A DNA stretch of 36,835 nucleotides, taken from positions 1-36,835 of the forward strand of contig JALFKC010000061.1 of assembly GCA_022775765.1 (NCBI GenBank), read 5' to 3'. A model generated the notes under the pieces. It was not told the DNA's origin. It saw only the letters and a list, made by a program, of their open reading frames with translations, and did not search any database. This document shows, in pieces, positions 2,316 through 7,656 of this stretch; positions within the stretch are counted from its first letter, which is position 1; every line of letters begins with the position of its first letter. This stretch comes from Campylobacter sp. GTDB taxonomy: Bacteria > Campylobacterota > Campylobacteria > Campylobacterales > Campylobacteraceae. The translations under genes were made by a program, and so were the position numbers.

Positions 2316-2669
2316 TTAATCTATAAACTCCACAAAAGCCATCTGTGCTGCGTCGCCTCTTCTAAGGCGAGTTTTGATAACTCTTGTGTATCCACCATTG
2401 CGACTTGAGTATTTTGGTGCGATCTCATTTACAAGTTTTTTAGTCGCTTCTTTATCTTGAAGTGCCGCAAATACTACCTTGTGAGCATTTGCATCACCAA
2501 CTCTAGCCCTTGTTATGAGCTTTTCAACATAACCTCTTAGCTCTTTTGCCTTTGGCAAAGTTGTCTCTATTTTCTCTGCATTTACAATCGCTATAGTTAA
2601 ATTTTTAAGCAATGCAGCACGATGAGAAGAGGTTCTACCTAATTTTCTATATCCGTGATTGTGTCTCAT
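2316..2669 (-). CDS. rplQ: 50S ribosomal protein L17
   Basis: The 117-residue protein has the L17 N-terminus [17 protein letters not shown] and the conserved internal segment [18 protein letters not shown]17 binds 23S rRNA near the peptide exit tunnel. It is the last gene of the cluster, starting 3 bp after the rpoA stop, and is followed at once by a hairpin terminator. The length is normal for the family. No anomaly. Confidence 0.97.
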
Positions 2670-2672
2670 CTA

Positions 2673-3689
2673 TTATTGTCCTTCGCTATTTTGTGTTTTT
2701 AACTCATTGAGTTTTTTGATTATCTGATCGACATGCTCAATTTTATCTGCACCACCGACTGGATATCCTATGTCTTCCATAACTGCTTTGATCTCTTCAA
2801 GAGATTTTTTGCCCAAATTTTTAAGCTCTTTTAGCTCATTTTCTTCCATAGTAGCAAGCTCGCCAATATAAACAATACCCGCTCTATCTAGGCAATTAAA
2901 GCTTCTTGCACTTAAATTTAGATTTGTTACATTCTCAAAAAGTTTTGAATGTTGTGAAGAGGCTGGCACAGCACTTAAAATCATACTTGAGTCTATATTT
3001 GCAATACCTGAAAAAACAGATAGCTGTTGATAAAGAGACTCTAAAGCGTTCTTAAACGCCATAGATGGCGAAATTTGACCGTCGGTTGTGATAGTAAAAG
3101 TAATCCTTTCATAGTCAGGATTGTCCTCAACAAGCACATTATCTATATCATAAACTGCTCTCTTAACAGGTGTAAAAAATGCATCCAAAGCTATATACTC
3201 TTTGTCTATATAGTCTCTTAACTCTTCACTTGGAACATATCCGATACCCTTTTCAACTATGACAGTAAAATTCAGATCAGCATCTTCATTGATAGTAGCC
3301 AAATAAGCATCCGGATTAACAATCTCTATGATATCGTTGTTAAGGTCAGCACCCTTTATCTCTTTTGGACCGCTAAAATTATACTCAACTACCTCTCTTT
3401 TAGAATCACTTTTTATCTTAAATCTTAAATTTTTTAGATTTATTATAAAAACTGCAACATCCTCAAGCATACCTCTCATACTATCAAATTCGTGGGCTAT
3501 ACCTGCTATTTTGATAGCAGTTGGTGCATAACCAACTGTGCTAGTATAAAGAAGCCTTCTTAAAGGATGGGCTACAGTTACTGCGTAGCCTGTCTCAAAA
3601 GGATATGCAATTATTTTTGCTACATTATCACTAACCTGTTCTACATGTATCTCAGTAGGTATATAGGCTGATGTTGTGATTTTTCTCAT
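2673..3689 (-). CDS. rpoA: DNA-directed RNA polymerase subunit alpha
   Basis: A 338-residue alpha subunit that nucleates assembly of the beta and beta-prime subunits. The N-terminal dimerisation domain (about 1-230) shows [17 protein letters not shown]. The C-terminal domain (about 250-325) shows the helix-hairpin-helix pattern [15 protein letters not shown] and [13 protein letters not shown], which contacts UP elements and activators. It lies between rpsD (12 bp) and rplQ (3 bp), the usual bacterial alpha-operon position. An ATCTCCT complement before the ATG gives a good ribosome-binding site. Confidence 0.97.
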
Positions 3690-3701: not shown

Positions 3702-4328
3702 TTATTTTGAGTAAAGCTCTACTATAAATCTTTCCTCTACTGGAATAACAACTTCTTCTCTTTGTGGAACTCTTGTAAAAATTCCATATTTTTTATCTTT
3801 TTCCACATCAACCCACGCAACAATGCCGGTTTGTGCAGTAAGCTCAATCGCTCTTGTAATTTGAGAATTTGATTTGCTCTTTTCTACTATCTCTATTTTT
3901 TGTCCCTCTTTTACACTGTATGATGGGATATCAACTTTCTTGCCATCAACTAAAATATGTCCATGGCTTACTAGTTGTCTTGCGAAGCGTCTAGTAGTAG
4001 CAAAACCCATTCTATATACTACATTGTCAAGTCTTTGCTCTAAAAGCTGGATTAAAAGAGCTCCTGTGTTACCCTCTCTTCTAGCTGCCTCTTTAAAAAG
4101 TCTAAGAAATTGCTTTTCGCTTATTCCATACATAAATTTAGCTTTTTGCTTCTCTCTAAGCTGTAAGCCATATTCGCTAATTTTTGCTCTTCTTTGTCCA
4201 TGTTGTCCTGGAGCATAAGGTCTTTTATCAAGAGCACTTTTGCCTGCAAGTCGCCTCTCGCCTTTCATCGCAAGAGAAACCCCAAGGCGTCTTTCTAGTT
4301 TTTCAACTGGTCCTGTATATCTTGCCAT
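3702..4328 (-). CDS. rpsD: 30S ribosomal protein S4
   Basis: A 208-residue S4, a primary 16S rRNA binder that starts 30S assembly. The N-terminus [16 protein letters not shown] and the S4 RNA-binding domain ([27 protein letters not shown], about residues 95-160) identify it. The N-terminal region has no four-cysteine zinc site, so it is the zinc-free form. In E. coli S4 represses its own operon through the rpmJ-rpsM leader; the structured leader upstream of rpmJ here (5232-5353) is a candidate for an equivalent loop. Confidence 0.96.
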
Positions 4329-4343
4329 AAATTTCTCCTATAA

Positions 4344-4736
4344 TTACACGCGGCGGCGTTTTGGTGGTCTGCAACCATTGTGAGCCAAAGGGGTTACATC
4401 TTTAAAAGATGTTACTTTTACTCCCTCAATAGCACCTACACTCTTTACAGCGGTCTCTCTACCGCTACCTGGACCTTGAACTTTGATACCAACTTCTTTA
4501 ATGCCGTGTTCTTTAGCTTTATTCATAGCATCTTCTACCGCTTGTTGAGCTGCATAAGGAGTTGATTTTTTGCTACCTTTAAAGCCAAGCCCACCTGCAC
4601 TACTCCACGCTATAACATTTCCCATTTCATCGGTAACTGTTACCATTGTGTTGTTAAAACTTGCAGAGATAAACACTATGCCTTTTGCAATACTTTTTCT
4701 AACAACTTTTTTTTTAACTACTTTTCTTTTTGCCAT
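4344..4736 (-). CDS. rpsK: 30S ribosomal protein S11
   Basis: A 130-residue S11 located on the 30S platform. Recognised by [30 protein letters not shown] and the C-terminal [15 protein letters not shown]. The basic N-terminal tail ([12 protein letters not shown]) is usual. It sits 9 bp after rpsM and 15 bp before rpsD. Confidence 0.97.
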
Positions 4737-4745
4737 TTAAATTCC

Positions 4746-5114
4746 TTAATTGCTAGCAGCGCCTACAGTTTTGCGCTTACCTTTTCTAGTTCTAGCGTTA
4801 GTTTTGGTTTTTTGACCACGAACAGGAAGCCCTTTTCTGTGTCTTAAACCTCTATAACTACCTAAATCCATTAAAGCTTTGATATCCATAGCCACGCTTT
4901 TTCTAAGATCACCCTCAACCACATAGTGTTCTTGAATCTCTTTTCTGATAGCCGCAGCCTCATCTTCGCTTAGTTCATGAACTCTCTTGTCATAAGAAAT
5001 TCCAACAGCATCAAGAATCTTTCTTGATGTAAATAGCCCAATGCCATAAATATAGGTTAGGCCGTATTCGATTCTTTTTTTCTTTGGTAGATCTACACCT
5101 GCTATACGAGCCAT
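4746..5114 (-). CDS. rpsM: 30S ribosomal protein S13
   Basis: A 122-residue S13 of the 30S head, which contacts the P-site tRNA and the intersubunit bridge. It shows [17 protein letters not shown], the helix-two-turn-helix region [14 protein letters not shown], and the conserved [17 protein letters not shown] followed by the basic tail. It starts 3 bp after the rpmJ stop. Confidence 0.97.
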
Positions 5115-5117
5115 ATC

Positions 5118-5231
5118 TTATCCTTGCCTTTGCTTATGTCTTGGGTTTTCGCAAATAATGCGAACTATACCTTTGCGTTTGACAATTTTACATTTGTCAC
5201 ACATCTTCTTTACAGAAGGACGAACTTTCAT
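5118..5231 (-). CDS. rpmJ: 50S ribosomal protein L36 (zinc-ribbon type)
   Basis: A 37-residue protein starting [15 protein letters not shown] and ending NPRHKQRQG. Cys11, Cys14, Cys27 and His32 form the zinc site of the zinc-containing L36 form. The ribosome-binding site AGGAG lies just upstream of the ATG. It is the first gene after a 164-bp gap from infA; that gap contains a promoter and a folded leader (see 5232-5365). rpsM follows after 3 bp. Confidence 0.96.
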
Positions 5232-5365
5232 ACTAGTCTCCTAAAAAAATTTCCACTTTTTATTCAACTGCACCAGGTTTGATGAAGTTCAAACCAACTG
5301 TTTTCAAAACAGTGGTGATTTTGAAAACACTTCTTCACACAGTTAGTTGCAAAGCTTTGATTATA
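5232..5365 (-). promoter_or_regulatory. Promoter and structured leader of the rpmJ-rplQ operon
   Basis: Minus-strand TATAAT at 5365-5360 gives a start near 5353 and a leader of about 120 nt. The leader RNA can form a three-way junction: P1 CACC (5317-5314) with GGTG (5274-5271); P2 ACTGTTTT (5313-5306) with AAAACAGT (5304-5297); P3 GGTTTGA (5295-5289) with TCAAACC (5282-5276). An outer helix can close it: 5349-5345 with 5269-5265, or 5344-5340 with 5270-5266. A competing 10-bp helix, GTTTTCAAAA (5328-5319) with TTTTGAAAAC (5309-5300), would destroy P2. Known E. coli biology (S4 binding the alpha-operon leader) suggests autoregulation. The role here is inferred. Confidence 0.6.
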
Positions 5366-5395
5366 TCTAAAATTTGCTTTGATTTTACTTATAAA

Positions 5396-5614
5396 TTATT
5401 TGTATCTATAAGTGATTCTGCCTTTATCTAAGCTATAGGGTGTGAGTTCAACTTTAACTCTATCACCAGGCATAATCTTAATGTAGTGCATACGCATTTT
5501 GCCCGCTATGTGACACAAAATCACATGCTTATTGTCAAGTTCTACTTTAAAAGTAGCATTTGGCAGTGCTTCTATCACATTGCCATCTATCTCTATGACA
5601 TCATCTTTTGCCAA
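5396..5614 (-). CDS. infA: Translation initiation factor IF-1
   Basis: IF-1 binds the 30S A site during initiation. I place the start at the TTG at 5614, giving 72 residues ([13 protein letters not shown]...), the usual IF-1 length. GGAG lies 5 nt upstream of this TTG, and it overlaps codons of a longer frame that begins at an ATG at 5629. The single S1-type OB fold is recognisable by [20 protein letters not shown] and ends in GRITYRYK. Its own promoter lies at 5653-5658. rpmJ follows only after a 164-bp regulated gap. Confidence 0.95.
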
Positions 5615-5652
5615 GCTCTCTCCTTTCATATGAATTTGATGTTAGGATCGCT

Positions 5653-5658
5653 ATTATA
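5653..5658 (-). promoter_or_regulatory. -10 element of infA
   Basis: Minus-strand TATAAT (TTTTTGTATAATAGC) places transcription start near 5645, about 30 nt before the TTG start of infA. No good -35, as expected in Campylobacter. It shows that infA is not read from the map/secY operon. Confidence 0.6.
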
Positions 5659-5801
5659 CAAAAATTTAAATTTATTTAAACTTAAAATTGATTGAAAATA
5701 AGCTAAATTTTAGGTTGTTCGCTTAAATTTCATTTGCTAATTTTTGTGGAAGCATTTATTAAATAGTCGCATTATTAAGCAATTTTATCAAAAGGAATAG
5801 T

Positions 5802-6418
5802 ATGAAAATCAAAATTTTAATTTTAAGTCTAGCAACGCCATAGCTTTAAACGCTAACAGCCATAGCACTCATATGGGTAGCACAGATAGCGGTTTTAGTG
5901 GATAATGACAAATATGCACCAAGCAATGTATAATCAAGAAATGAAATTTAACGGAAGTGTTGAAGAGGATTTTTTTGCAAATATGATATCTCATCATCAA
6001 GGAGCTGTGGATTCTGTAAAAAGTCTATTAAAGTATTCAAAAGATGAAAACATTAGACAAATCGCCAAGCAAATTATCGCCGATCAAGAAAAAGAGATTG
6101 CCGAATTTAGAAAAATTTTGCAAAACAAATCATATTAAACTACCCAAATAAAAAAAGGTGACTACGCGACTTTTATTGATGAACAAAAAAATTGCAATGG
6201 ATAAAATGATGATAAATATGGCAAATATCGCCCCTAGTGCAAATTTAGACGCTGACTTTTTAAAAGCTATGATGCCACATCATCAAGGTGCAATTGAGTC
6301 TTCAAAGAGCTTGTTAAAATACTCAAAATATCCAAAAATCAGAGCAATTGCTGAGAAAATCATAAGTGACCAAGAAAAAGAGATTGAAAATTTTCTTTTT
6401 ATTTTAAACACAAAATAG
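5802..6418 (+). pseudogene. Broken two-domain DUF305 periplasmic protein
   Basis: An ATG at 5802 with AAAAGGAA upstream begins a signal peptide (MKIKILILSLAT). One base is lost near 5838; restoring the frame gives IALNANSHSTHMG. A second shift lies near 5900. The first DUF305 unit (from about 5905) contains ISHHQGAVDSVKSLLKYS and ends at a TAA at 6136. The second unit, entered through a +1 slip in an A7 run at about 6187, contains MPHHQGAIESSKSLLKYS. DUF305 proteins such as CopM are periplasmic and linked to metal (copper/silver) binding through the HHQG motif. With at least four lesions the gene is very unlikely to make the full protein. Confidence 0.85.
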
Positions 6419-6420
6419 TA

Positions 6421-6445
6421 ATTTAGCCCAAAATTTGGGCTAAAT
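6421..6445. terminator. Bidirectional terminator between DUF305 relic and MFS gene
   Basis: A near-perfect palindrome: ATTTAGCCCAAA (6421-6432), one central base, TTTGGGCTAAAT (6434-6445). It sits between two convergent genes, 2 bp past one stop and 18 bp from the other, so it can serve both strands. Confidence 0.75.
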
Positions 6446-6463
6446 TTAAGCCTTATTACTTAT

Positions 6464-7615
6464 TCAAATCTCTTTTTTTAGCAAAAGATAACAAAATAAA
6501 AACAAGCTTATAAATCCTAAAAACCAAAACATATTTGAATAGCCAAAGCTTGTAGCTATTACTCCACCTATCATTGCCCCAAATCCAATTCCAGCGTCAA
6601 ATCCAACCAAAAATGTAGAATTTGCCACCCCCTTTTTCTCTTTGGGGGCCGAAACTATAGCCATAGTTTGAAGCGAAAGCTGAATTGACCCAAATCCAAA
6701 ACTAAAAAACGCCGCACTGATTATTAGATCCCAAAAACTATCCAAAAGTGCTAAAATCACAAGTGAGATTATAAAAAATGGAAATGAGATTATTACAACT
6801 TTGTAATGCCCTATTTTATCAACCAAATATCCGCAAAGTGGTCTTGAAAGAGCCAAAACAATTGCATAAGCTACAAAAAACATTCCTACATTTTCAATAT
6901 TTTTAGAGTTTGCATAAAGCACTACAAATGTTACCAAAGCCCCATAGCTAACAGATAAAATCGACATAATAATAGTTGGAAAAATAGAGGTCTTTTCAAA
7001 AAGAGATTGCAGATTTAGCGGGTGTTTTGCTCGCAAGCGAAAAAACGGCTCACGCTGTAAAATTTGTAAAACAAATACCGCCAAAGATGATAAAAACGCC
7101 AAAAAGCAGCTAACATAAGCAACCAATGAAAATCCGCCCTTTTGCATAAGCCAAAGCCCAAAATATGGCCCAATGGCAAGTGAGAATGCTAAAGCTAAGG
7201 TAAAAACCGCCATTCCCCTACCAAAATAGCGTTTGGGAATAATATCGCTTGCGATGGTGTTGTTGGCCGTGCTTACAATCCCCCAACCAACTCCGTGAAT
7301 TAGCCTAAAAATAAAAATCACCAAAAGTGAAGTAAAAATATTAAAGCTAAAAACTGAGATTATAAAGATAATACCACCAAGATAACAAACCCACCATCTA
7401 CCATATTCATCCAAAATTTTGCCACAAAATATCCTAAGAAGTATCGCCGCAAGTGCAAAAAACATATGAATTACGCCTATGCTCCACTCTTTTGCACCGA
7501 GATTTTCTAAAAATATAGGAAAAGTTGGCATTAGAAGCTGAAAAGCGGTAAATAGTAAAAAATTTGCAAAAGTTATAAGCAAGAGCTTTTTTATCCAAGA
7601 CATCAATCTAATCAA
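6464..7615 (-). CDS. Major facilitator superfamily transporter
   Basis: About 383 residues with twelve predicted membrane helices. The loop-2/3 signature is visible as GKILDEYGRWW (motif A type, G-x3-D-x2-G-R), repeated in the second half as GYLVDKIGHYK. It probably exports a drug or metabolite; the substrate cannot be deduced. Start choice: TTG at 7615, which has GGAG 6 nt upstream; alternatives are TTG 7627 (overlapping that GGAG) and ATG 7603 (MSWIKK). It has its own promoter and no operon partner. It lies between map and infA, genes that are adjacent in many bacteria. Confidence 0.85.
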   Translation of the reverse strand: MIRLMSWIKKLLLITFANFLLFTAFQLLMPTFPIFLENLGAKEWSIGVIHMFFALAAILLRIFCGKILDEYGRWWVCYLGGIIFIISVFSFNIFTSLLVIFIFRLIHGVGWGIVSTANNTIASDIIPKRYFGRGMAVFTLALAFSLAIGPYFGLWLMQKGGFSLVAYVSCFLAFLSSLAVFVLQILQREPFFRLRAKHPLNLQSLFEKTSIFPTIIMSILSVSYGALVTFVVLYANSKNIENVGMFFVAYAIVLALSRPLCGYLVDKIGHYKVVIISFPFFIISLVILALLDSFWDLIISAAFFSFGFGSIQLSLQTMAIVSAPKEKKGVANSTFLVGFDAGIGFGAMIGGVIATSFGYSNMFWFLGFISLFLFCYLLLKKEI

Positions 7616-7656
7616 ATTTAACTCCAAAACAGCACTATATTTTAATAAAAACTCTC

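Follow-up and report, generated by a model that had tools for sequence, protein, structure and literature searches.

A conserved structured RNA upstream of rpmJ in Campylobacter and many of its relatives, probably an autoregulatory ribosomal-protein leader

The rpmJ-rplQ operon and its leader region

The stretch of DNA analysed here (hereafter the window; 36,835 nucleotides from Campylobacter sp.) carries on its minus strand the genes rpmJ, rpsM, rpsK, rpsD, rpoA and rplQ, separated in that order by gaps of only 3, 9, 15, 12 and 3 nt (Table 1). As originally predicted, a 164-nt intergenic gap lies between the end of infA at 5396 and the start of rpmJ at 5231, and a promoter-like element is found within it on the same strand. 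This TATAAT sequence has counterparts elsewhere: of 123 distinct relatives, 107 carry TANAAT within the stretch examined 5' of the core, compared with a mean of 17.2 and a maximum of 28 of 123 in 200 shuffles. From this -10 element, transcription is predicted to start near 5353, yielding a leader of 120 nt (about 5353-5232). Such a leader would be unusual, since 5' UTRs are short across the genus, with a length of about 25 nt described for C. jejuni in the main text of a Ribo-seq paper (PMC11955535). Neither that main text nor the main text of a C. jejuni dRNA-seq paper (PMC3847290) mentions rpmJ.

The order rpsM-rpsK-rpsD is kept in 66/66 named loci long enough to judge, a set that includes some which the leader models described below do not match, and rpsD is present in the operon both in the window and in these 66 loci. 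Between map and infA, the window also holds an MFS gene (6464-7627, minus strand) and two adjacent plus-strand ORFs of 77 and 86 amino acids (5905-6418), each matching the same half of DUF305; the pair resembles two copies of one domain, with a stop splitting them.

Table 1. Features of the leader region and the downstream operon in the window.
Feature	Position	Strand	Remark
infA	5629-5396	-	3' end at 5396
-10 element TATAAT, presumed leader promoter	5360..5365	-	TANAAT enriched in relatives
P1 5' strand (UAACUGUGU)	5337..5345	-	
GAAGAA junction strand, P1 to P2	5331..5336	-	
P2 5' strand	5318..5329	-	6/12 P2 pairs significant
Pseudoknot 5' strand CCACU, in P2 loop	5311..5315	-	first-pair E 0.0034
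P2 3' strand	5299..5310	-	
UU linking P2 to P3	5296..5297	-	UU in 109/123
P3 5' strand	5289..5295	-	5/7 P3 pairs significant
P3 3' strand	5276..5282	-	loop motif directly before, UC in 117/123
P1 3' strand (GUGCAGUUG)	5265..5273	-	
Pseudoknot 3' strand AGUGG	5253..5257	-	21 nt 5' of rpmJ ATG
Shine-Dalgarno sequence AGGAG of rpmJ	5238..5242	-	direct reading
rpmJ (L36), first gene controlled in the proposal	5118..5231	-	
rpsM (S13)	4746..5114	-	3 nt after rpmJ
rpsK (S11)	4344..4736	-	
rpsD (S4), presumed ligand	3702..4328	-	Ribosomal_S4 and S4 domains
rpoA	2673..3689	-	
rplQ (L17)	2316..2669	-	

A covarying three-way junction and its pseudoknot

The leader forms a three-way junction of helices P1, P2 and P3, together with a pseudoknot that was absent from the original prediction. 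The junction itself has been borne out, being conserved and covarying among relatives, and P3 has exactly the 7 bp expected of it; P2, by contrast, extends over 12 bp rather than 8, and P1, given before as 4 bp, reaches up to 9 bp in the window, four of them G-U. Among relatives, P1 was recovered as a helix of its own (score of at least 4) in 111/123 cases, against 44% with shuffled 3' strands. The junction strand reads GAAGA followed by A or G in 118/123 relatives, a count that is partly built in, as GAAG was a requirement of the parser. Single-sequence folding of the window leader gave a z-score of -2.37, with 3 of 200 shuffles folding as well, which taken alone is weak; the case for structure beyond chance therefore comes from covariation across relatives.

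We assessed this covariation on two sets of leaders. In a first alignment of 19, 92.8% of the alignment cells assigned to the proposed structure were paired, a value that none of 500 shuffles reached, 15 of 29 pairs had changed on both sides, and the covariation score was 0.334, compared with 0.121 for shuffled alignments and at most 0.081 for slid controls. We then tested all column pairs among 123 distinct leaders against 60 tree-simulated alignments, using a statistic like that of R-scape in an imitation of our own rather than R-scape itself. This analysis identified 12 of the 24 proposed pairs as significant (P2, 6/12; P3, 5/7; pseudoknot, 1/5), whereas the best of the 2461 non-proposed pairs had E = 3.7. 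The leaders were aligned by hand: of 191 loci, the parser retained the 146 that began with GAAG and scored 17 or higher, and merging identical cores left 124 and then 123. Three loci that were long-P1 forms or misparsed were taken out by hand, two before the count of 146 (L047, L060) and one after it (L043). We note that pairing guided the placement of the P3 3' strand, a bias in favour of P3, and that only the flanks were used to place P2; the covariation result from A4, which was fitted to model R1 (see below), likewise leans toward the structure. Taken together, these data confirm a conserved structured RNA upstream of rpmJ, with the strong covariation in relatives that the prediction had staked itself on.

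The pseudoknot joins the loop of P2 (CCACU) to an AGUGG segment near rpmJ. Its first pair, counted on the 108 leaders that remain when the 15 of 123 without a partner strand at the tested distance are set aside, is C-G in 66, G-C in 27, A-U in six, U-A in three, G-U in two and non-standard in four. This is the pair that was significant in the tree-simulated test (E 0.0034), and its partner strand had been positioned by a short motif and the distance to the ATG, not by pairing there. The remaining four pairs comprise two that never vary and two whose variation is not significant. In four genus genomes, CCGCU/AGCGG replaces CCACU/AGUGG. Furthermore, in 111 of 122 distinct leaders the P2-loop 5-mer is matched downstream by its exact complement, compared with 815 of 9560 (8.5%) when downstream regions were taken from leaders with a different 5-mer and with 5.8% in shuffled downstream sequence. 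The rightmost-motif rule used to find the 5-mer misplaces it in a few GCACCGCU loops (for CCGCU, a count of 2 versus 6), an error that works against the pseudoknot.

In the window, the partner strand ends 21 nt 5' of the ATG and 10 nt 5' of AGGAG. It lies 20-24 nt before the rpmJ ATG in 93 of the 111 leaders with a perfect partner, a constancy that, for most members, speaks for control at the initiation of translation. In another 14 of the 111 it lies 39-300 nt away, a distance at which the start site could hardly be blocked directly; these leaders need a separate account, such as an insert that folds. Between core and rpmJ, L017, L019, L190, L194, L197, L198, L203, L204 and L205 carry inserts that are tens to hundreds of nucleotides long, some with repeat-like pieces such as GCGACTAGTCGCG.

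The 10-bp alternative helix that had been put forward as exclusive with the junction does exist in the window (5348-5339 / 5301-5292). It is not conserved: six of its pairs fall within the alignment, all six form in only 38/123 relatives, and none of the aligned pairs outside the proposed structure was significant among the 123 leaders under the tree-simulated null. We therefore reject this helix as a conserved switch.

Spread of the element and comparison with known leaders

To follow the element across relatives, we sampled the stretches upstream of rpmJ in 14 genus genomes and 80 named loci. A covariance model built from the 19-leader alignment (R1) found one strong match per genome in all 14 genus genomes (E 7.0e-23 to 7.5e-17), the next-best match in any of them having E 0.061, and it matched 36 of the 80 named loci at E <= 0.003. 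In four genus genomes (L105-L108, G009-G012), infA no longer adjoins rpmJ-rpsM, and the leader went with rpmJ-rpsM. A second model, R2, comprising only P2 and P3 and built from 48 leaders, matched 193 of 397 Campylobacterota genomes (E <= 0.1; four of them above 1e-3), spread over 30 of 68 genera. We fetched 80 regions from the matched genomes, and rpmJ is present in 79; in the 80th (L204), the leader follows the end of infA and a long insert then runs to the end of the stretch. R2 also matched 37/80 named loci at E <= 1.1e-4, all on the same strand as rpsM, most of these being members of its training set. Conservation of the gap in relatives, on which the original prediction depended, is thus wide, and the sequences indicate that this RNA element has been kept for a very long evolutionary time in Campylobacter and many of its relatives.

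Loci titled Sulfurimonas or Sulfuricurvum have, at the same site, a three-way junction with a long P1 and, between P2 and P3, the same UUGG; no pseudoknot was evident in this form. Its covariation score was 0.330, compared with 0.167 for shuffled alignments and at most 0.107 for slid controls, and 13 of 26 pairs had changed on both sides. The corresponding model, R3, matched 49 of the 397 genomes at E <= 1.1e-8, all in family f7 and none among the 193 matched by R2; four further matches with E 0.003-0.011 were left out of this count. Among the named loci, 24/80 reached E <= 6e-6, including 19 that had been used to train the model, and L086 had E 1.8e-4. Weaker R3 matches fell on the same site in three R2-type loci (L056, L053 and L039; E 0.0042-0.058), and R2 gave one in a long-P1 locus (L073; E 0.057), cross-matches that lend weak support to a common origin of the two forms.

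Two Arcobacter-titled loci appear by eye to carry a third, looser version, with an R1 E-value of 0.15 for L045 and no match for L049. Nine Helicobacter-titled loci (L050, L061, L063, L077, L080, L082, L083, L091 and L092) had no match to R1 (E <= 1) or to R2 or R3 (E <= 0.1), which argues against control of this kind being universal in Campylobacterota. Three of them (L050, L061 and L063) share a different stretch upstream of rpmJ, CATAGTCGTTTAGGTGAT ... AGGACTATAAACTCAATGC, perhaps a separate Helicobacter leader. A contig titled as a Helicobacter pylori PMSS1 MAG (L066) has an rpmJ leader that is Arcobacter-like by eye (R1 E 0.44), and its title may therefore be wrong.

We next compared the element with known families. 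Rfam release 15 had nothing in the window at gathering, and searches of the leader up to E 10 returned no leader family and nothing resembling a bacterial leader; four loci that carry the element or a related form (L021, L047, L040 and L045) likewise gave nothing at gathering. As a positive control, the E. coli alpha leader (L211) was matched by Alpha_RBS (RF00140) with 102.7 bits. The gathering score of that family, 38 bits, was not reached in the window, nor did the leader itself match it up to E 10. In 15 relatives Alpha_RBS gave two sub-threshold matches (21.7 and 20.1 bits), which overlap the end of rpmJ and the start of rpsM and not the leader. On all these grounds we rejected membership. 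The fold is therefore different from that of E. coli, as had been proposed. The accompanying statement that the two leaders occupy the same place did not hold, since the E. coli element lies between rpmJ and rpsM, reaching into rpsM, whereas this one lies upstream of rpmJ; with an rpmJ-rpsM gap of only 3 nt in the window, it is not directly before rpsM. The two are alike in being alpha-operon leaders with a pseudoknot near the first start site, in the same operon except for rpmJ, and they differ in that the Campylobacter element has three helices, and its pseudoknot is a long-range one between loop and tail that stops short of the Shine-Dalgarno sequence.

Of the 20 new leaders described in the text of Eckert and Weinberg 2020 (PMC7247131), four are for S4; these come from Clostridia, Fusobacteriales, Bacteroidia and Flavobacteria and are predicted, with support from covariation. 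They also precede rpsM-rpsK-rpsD-rpoA-rplQ or rpsD-rpoA-rplQ; Epsilonproteobacteria are absent from the listing given there, and the present element is set apart from those leaders at the level of Rfam models. The S4 leader of Firmicutes, in rpsD mRNA, is an S4 autoregulatory leader, as the present element would be if our proposal holds. The conserved GUAA of the Firmicutes leader (PMC7247131, main text), a motif imitating 16S rRNA, occurs in only 19/123 of our cores, and the region of the Bacillus S4 leader forms no pseudoknot according to the review text of PMC10931766, unlike the Campylobacter leader. The same review text credits epsilonproteobacteria with an E. coli-like alpha operon, and our search found no described regulator for it. 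These organisms are unmentioned in the main texts of Weinberg 2010 (PMC2864571) and of a 50-genome survey of 2024 (PMC11109978), whose 30 leader candidates are given in supplements, and in the open-licence full-text literature we found no paper on such a leader in Campylobacterota. The element displays two of the general features by which ribosomal-protein leaders are recognised, a covarying structure and a same-strand position upstream of ribosomal-protein genes. In line with the suggestion of a new ribosomal-protein leader class for epsilonproteobacteria, which covariation, conservation and the absence of an Rfam match all support, we regard it as a new structural class of a known kind.

Proposed ligand and mode of action

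Through this leader, one of the operon's own proteins, most likely S4, probably turns its own production down. S4 is our best guess because it is encoded in the operon, regulates the alpha operon in E. coli (PMC10931766, in the text of the review) and has been assigned to similar leaders elsewhere, being the presumed ligand of several alpha-operon leaders in the text of PMC7247131; the choice is thus one of operon content and analogy. We consider it moderately likely that the element is a cis-acting leader to which S4 binds and which controls translation through the pseudoknot. On this model, the transcript begun near 5353 would fold into the three-way junction, and the P2 loop would pair with the segment just 5' of the rpmJ Shine-Dalgarno sequence. 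When S4 exceeds the available 16S rRNA, the free protein would bind both junction and pseudoknot and stabilise them, a 30S subunit would be blocked or trapped at rpmJ, and translation of the downstream genes would drop by coupling, since the genes from rpmJ to rplQ lie 3-15 nt apart. The near-invariant unpaired letters, namely the junction strand GAAGA plus A or G and the UC of the P3 loop, are the best candidates for protein-contact sites. The sequences establish a conserved structure with a pseudoknot that, in most members, keeps its distance from the ATG, as well as the constant link to the operon; the start site, S4 as ligand, repression and an action on translation are proposed on top of this. 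Against the S4 and pseudoknot model stand the long-P1 relatives without an evident pseudoknot and the four pseudoknot pairs that are invariant or not significant.

A rather doubtful extension of the S4 model is that the helix of the pseudoknot mimics the basal part of helix 18 of 16S rRNA, which lies in the S4 binding site. Sulfurovum-like leaders have a pseudoknot helix GCACCG ... GGUGCAA, and in the window's own genome the 16S rRNA has AAGCACCGGC ... GGGUGCAAGC at helix 18; the Campylobacter CCACU/AGUGG shares with 16S only the three middle pairs and the two A's that follow, a likeness that could arise from chance alone. Were the idea true, S4 would see an rRNA-like helix only once the start-site segment folds back, and control by S4 through a pseudoknot would have been invented a second, independent time across much of the phylum. 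Mimicry of 16S helix 16 through GAAGAA...GUUGG was dropped, as the window's own 16S reads GGATGACACTTTTCGGAGCGTAAACTCC there and does not share that pattern.

The same kind of element might instead answer to another protein of the operon (S13, S11, L36 or L17) or to a pair of them. Gene content fails to single out S4, since rpsM, rpsK and rpsD are inseparable and equally constant in all 66 loci; moreover, rpmJ is the gene adjoining the leader, and ligand guesses for multi-gene operons are described as uncertain in the text of PMC7247131. Even so, known alpha-operon leaders are assigned to S4, a primary binder of 16S rRNA (PMC10931766, review text), and we think a different ligand unlikely, if still worth consideration. 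It is quite improbable, in our estimate, that the fold is constitutive and raises translation or protects the mRNA independently of any regulator. P2 and the pseudoknot could serve just to make the start site available or to guard the 5' end, and regulation itself is here predicted rather than observed; the near-invariant unpaired letters nevertheless point to a specific partner, and the operon encodes a known autoregulator. For an action on transcription, by attenuation or antitermination, one could cite a long structured leader before a highly expressed operon and the U run (5249-5243) ahead of the Shine-Dalgarno sequence in the window. A scan of 4500-6500, however, picked up no terminator-like structure within the leader on the minus strand, the relatives inspected do not share the U run, and the pseudoknot partner strand holds its distance to the ATG in most leaders. 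Attenuation was rejected for want of a terminator in that scan, and we judge control at transcription very unlikely. Finally, a fold arising by chance, or conservation imposed by DNA or coding constraints, would suit the merely mild excess of single-sequence folding over shuffles and is contradicted by the covariation with its tree-simulated and slid controls and by the single high-scoring R1 match in each genus genome, which make it barely credible.

If the preferred reading of an S4-bound leader is right, the RNA described here is a candidate control element for S4, the alpha subunit of RNA polymerase and four other proteins, in a phylum that includes Campylobacter, Sulfurimonas and Sulfurovum. 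It would be one more RNA fold, apparently unrelated to the others, serving what is probably the same ligand, and so bears on how S4 recognises many shapes; it also raises the question of what Helicobacter uses instead.
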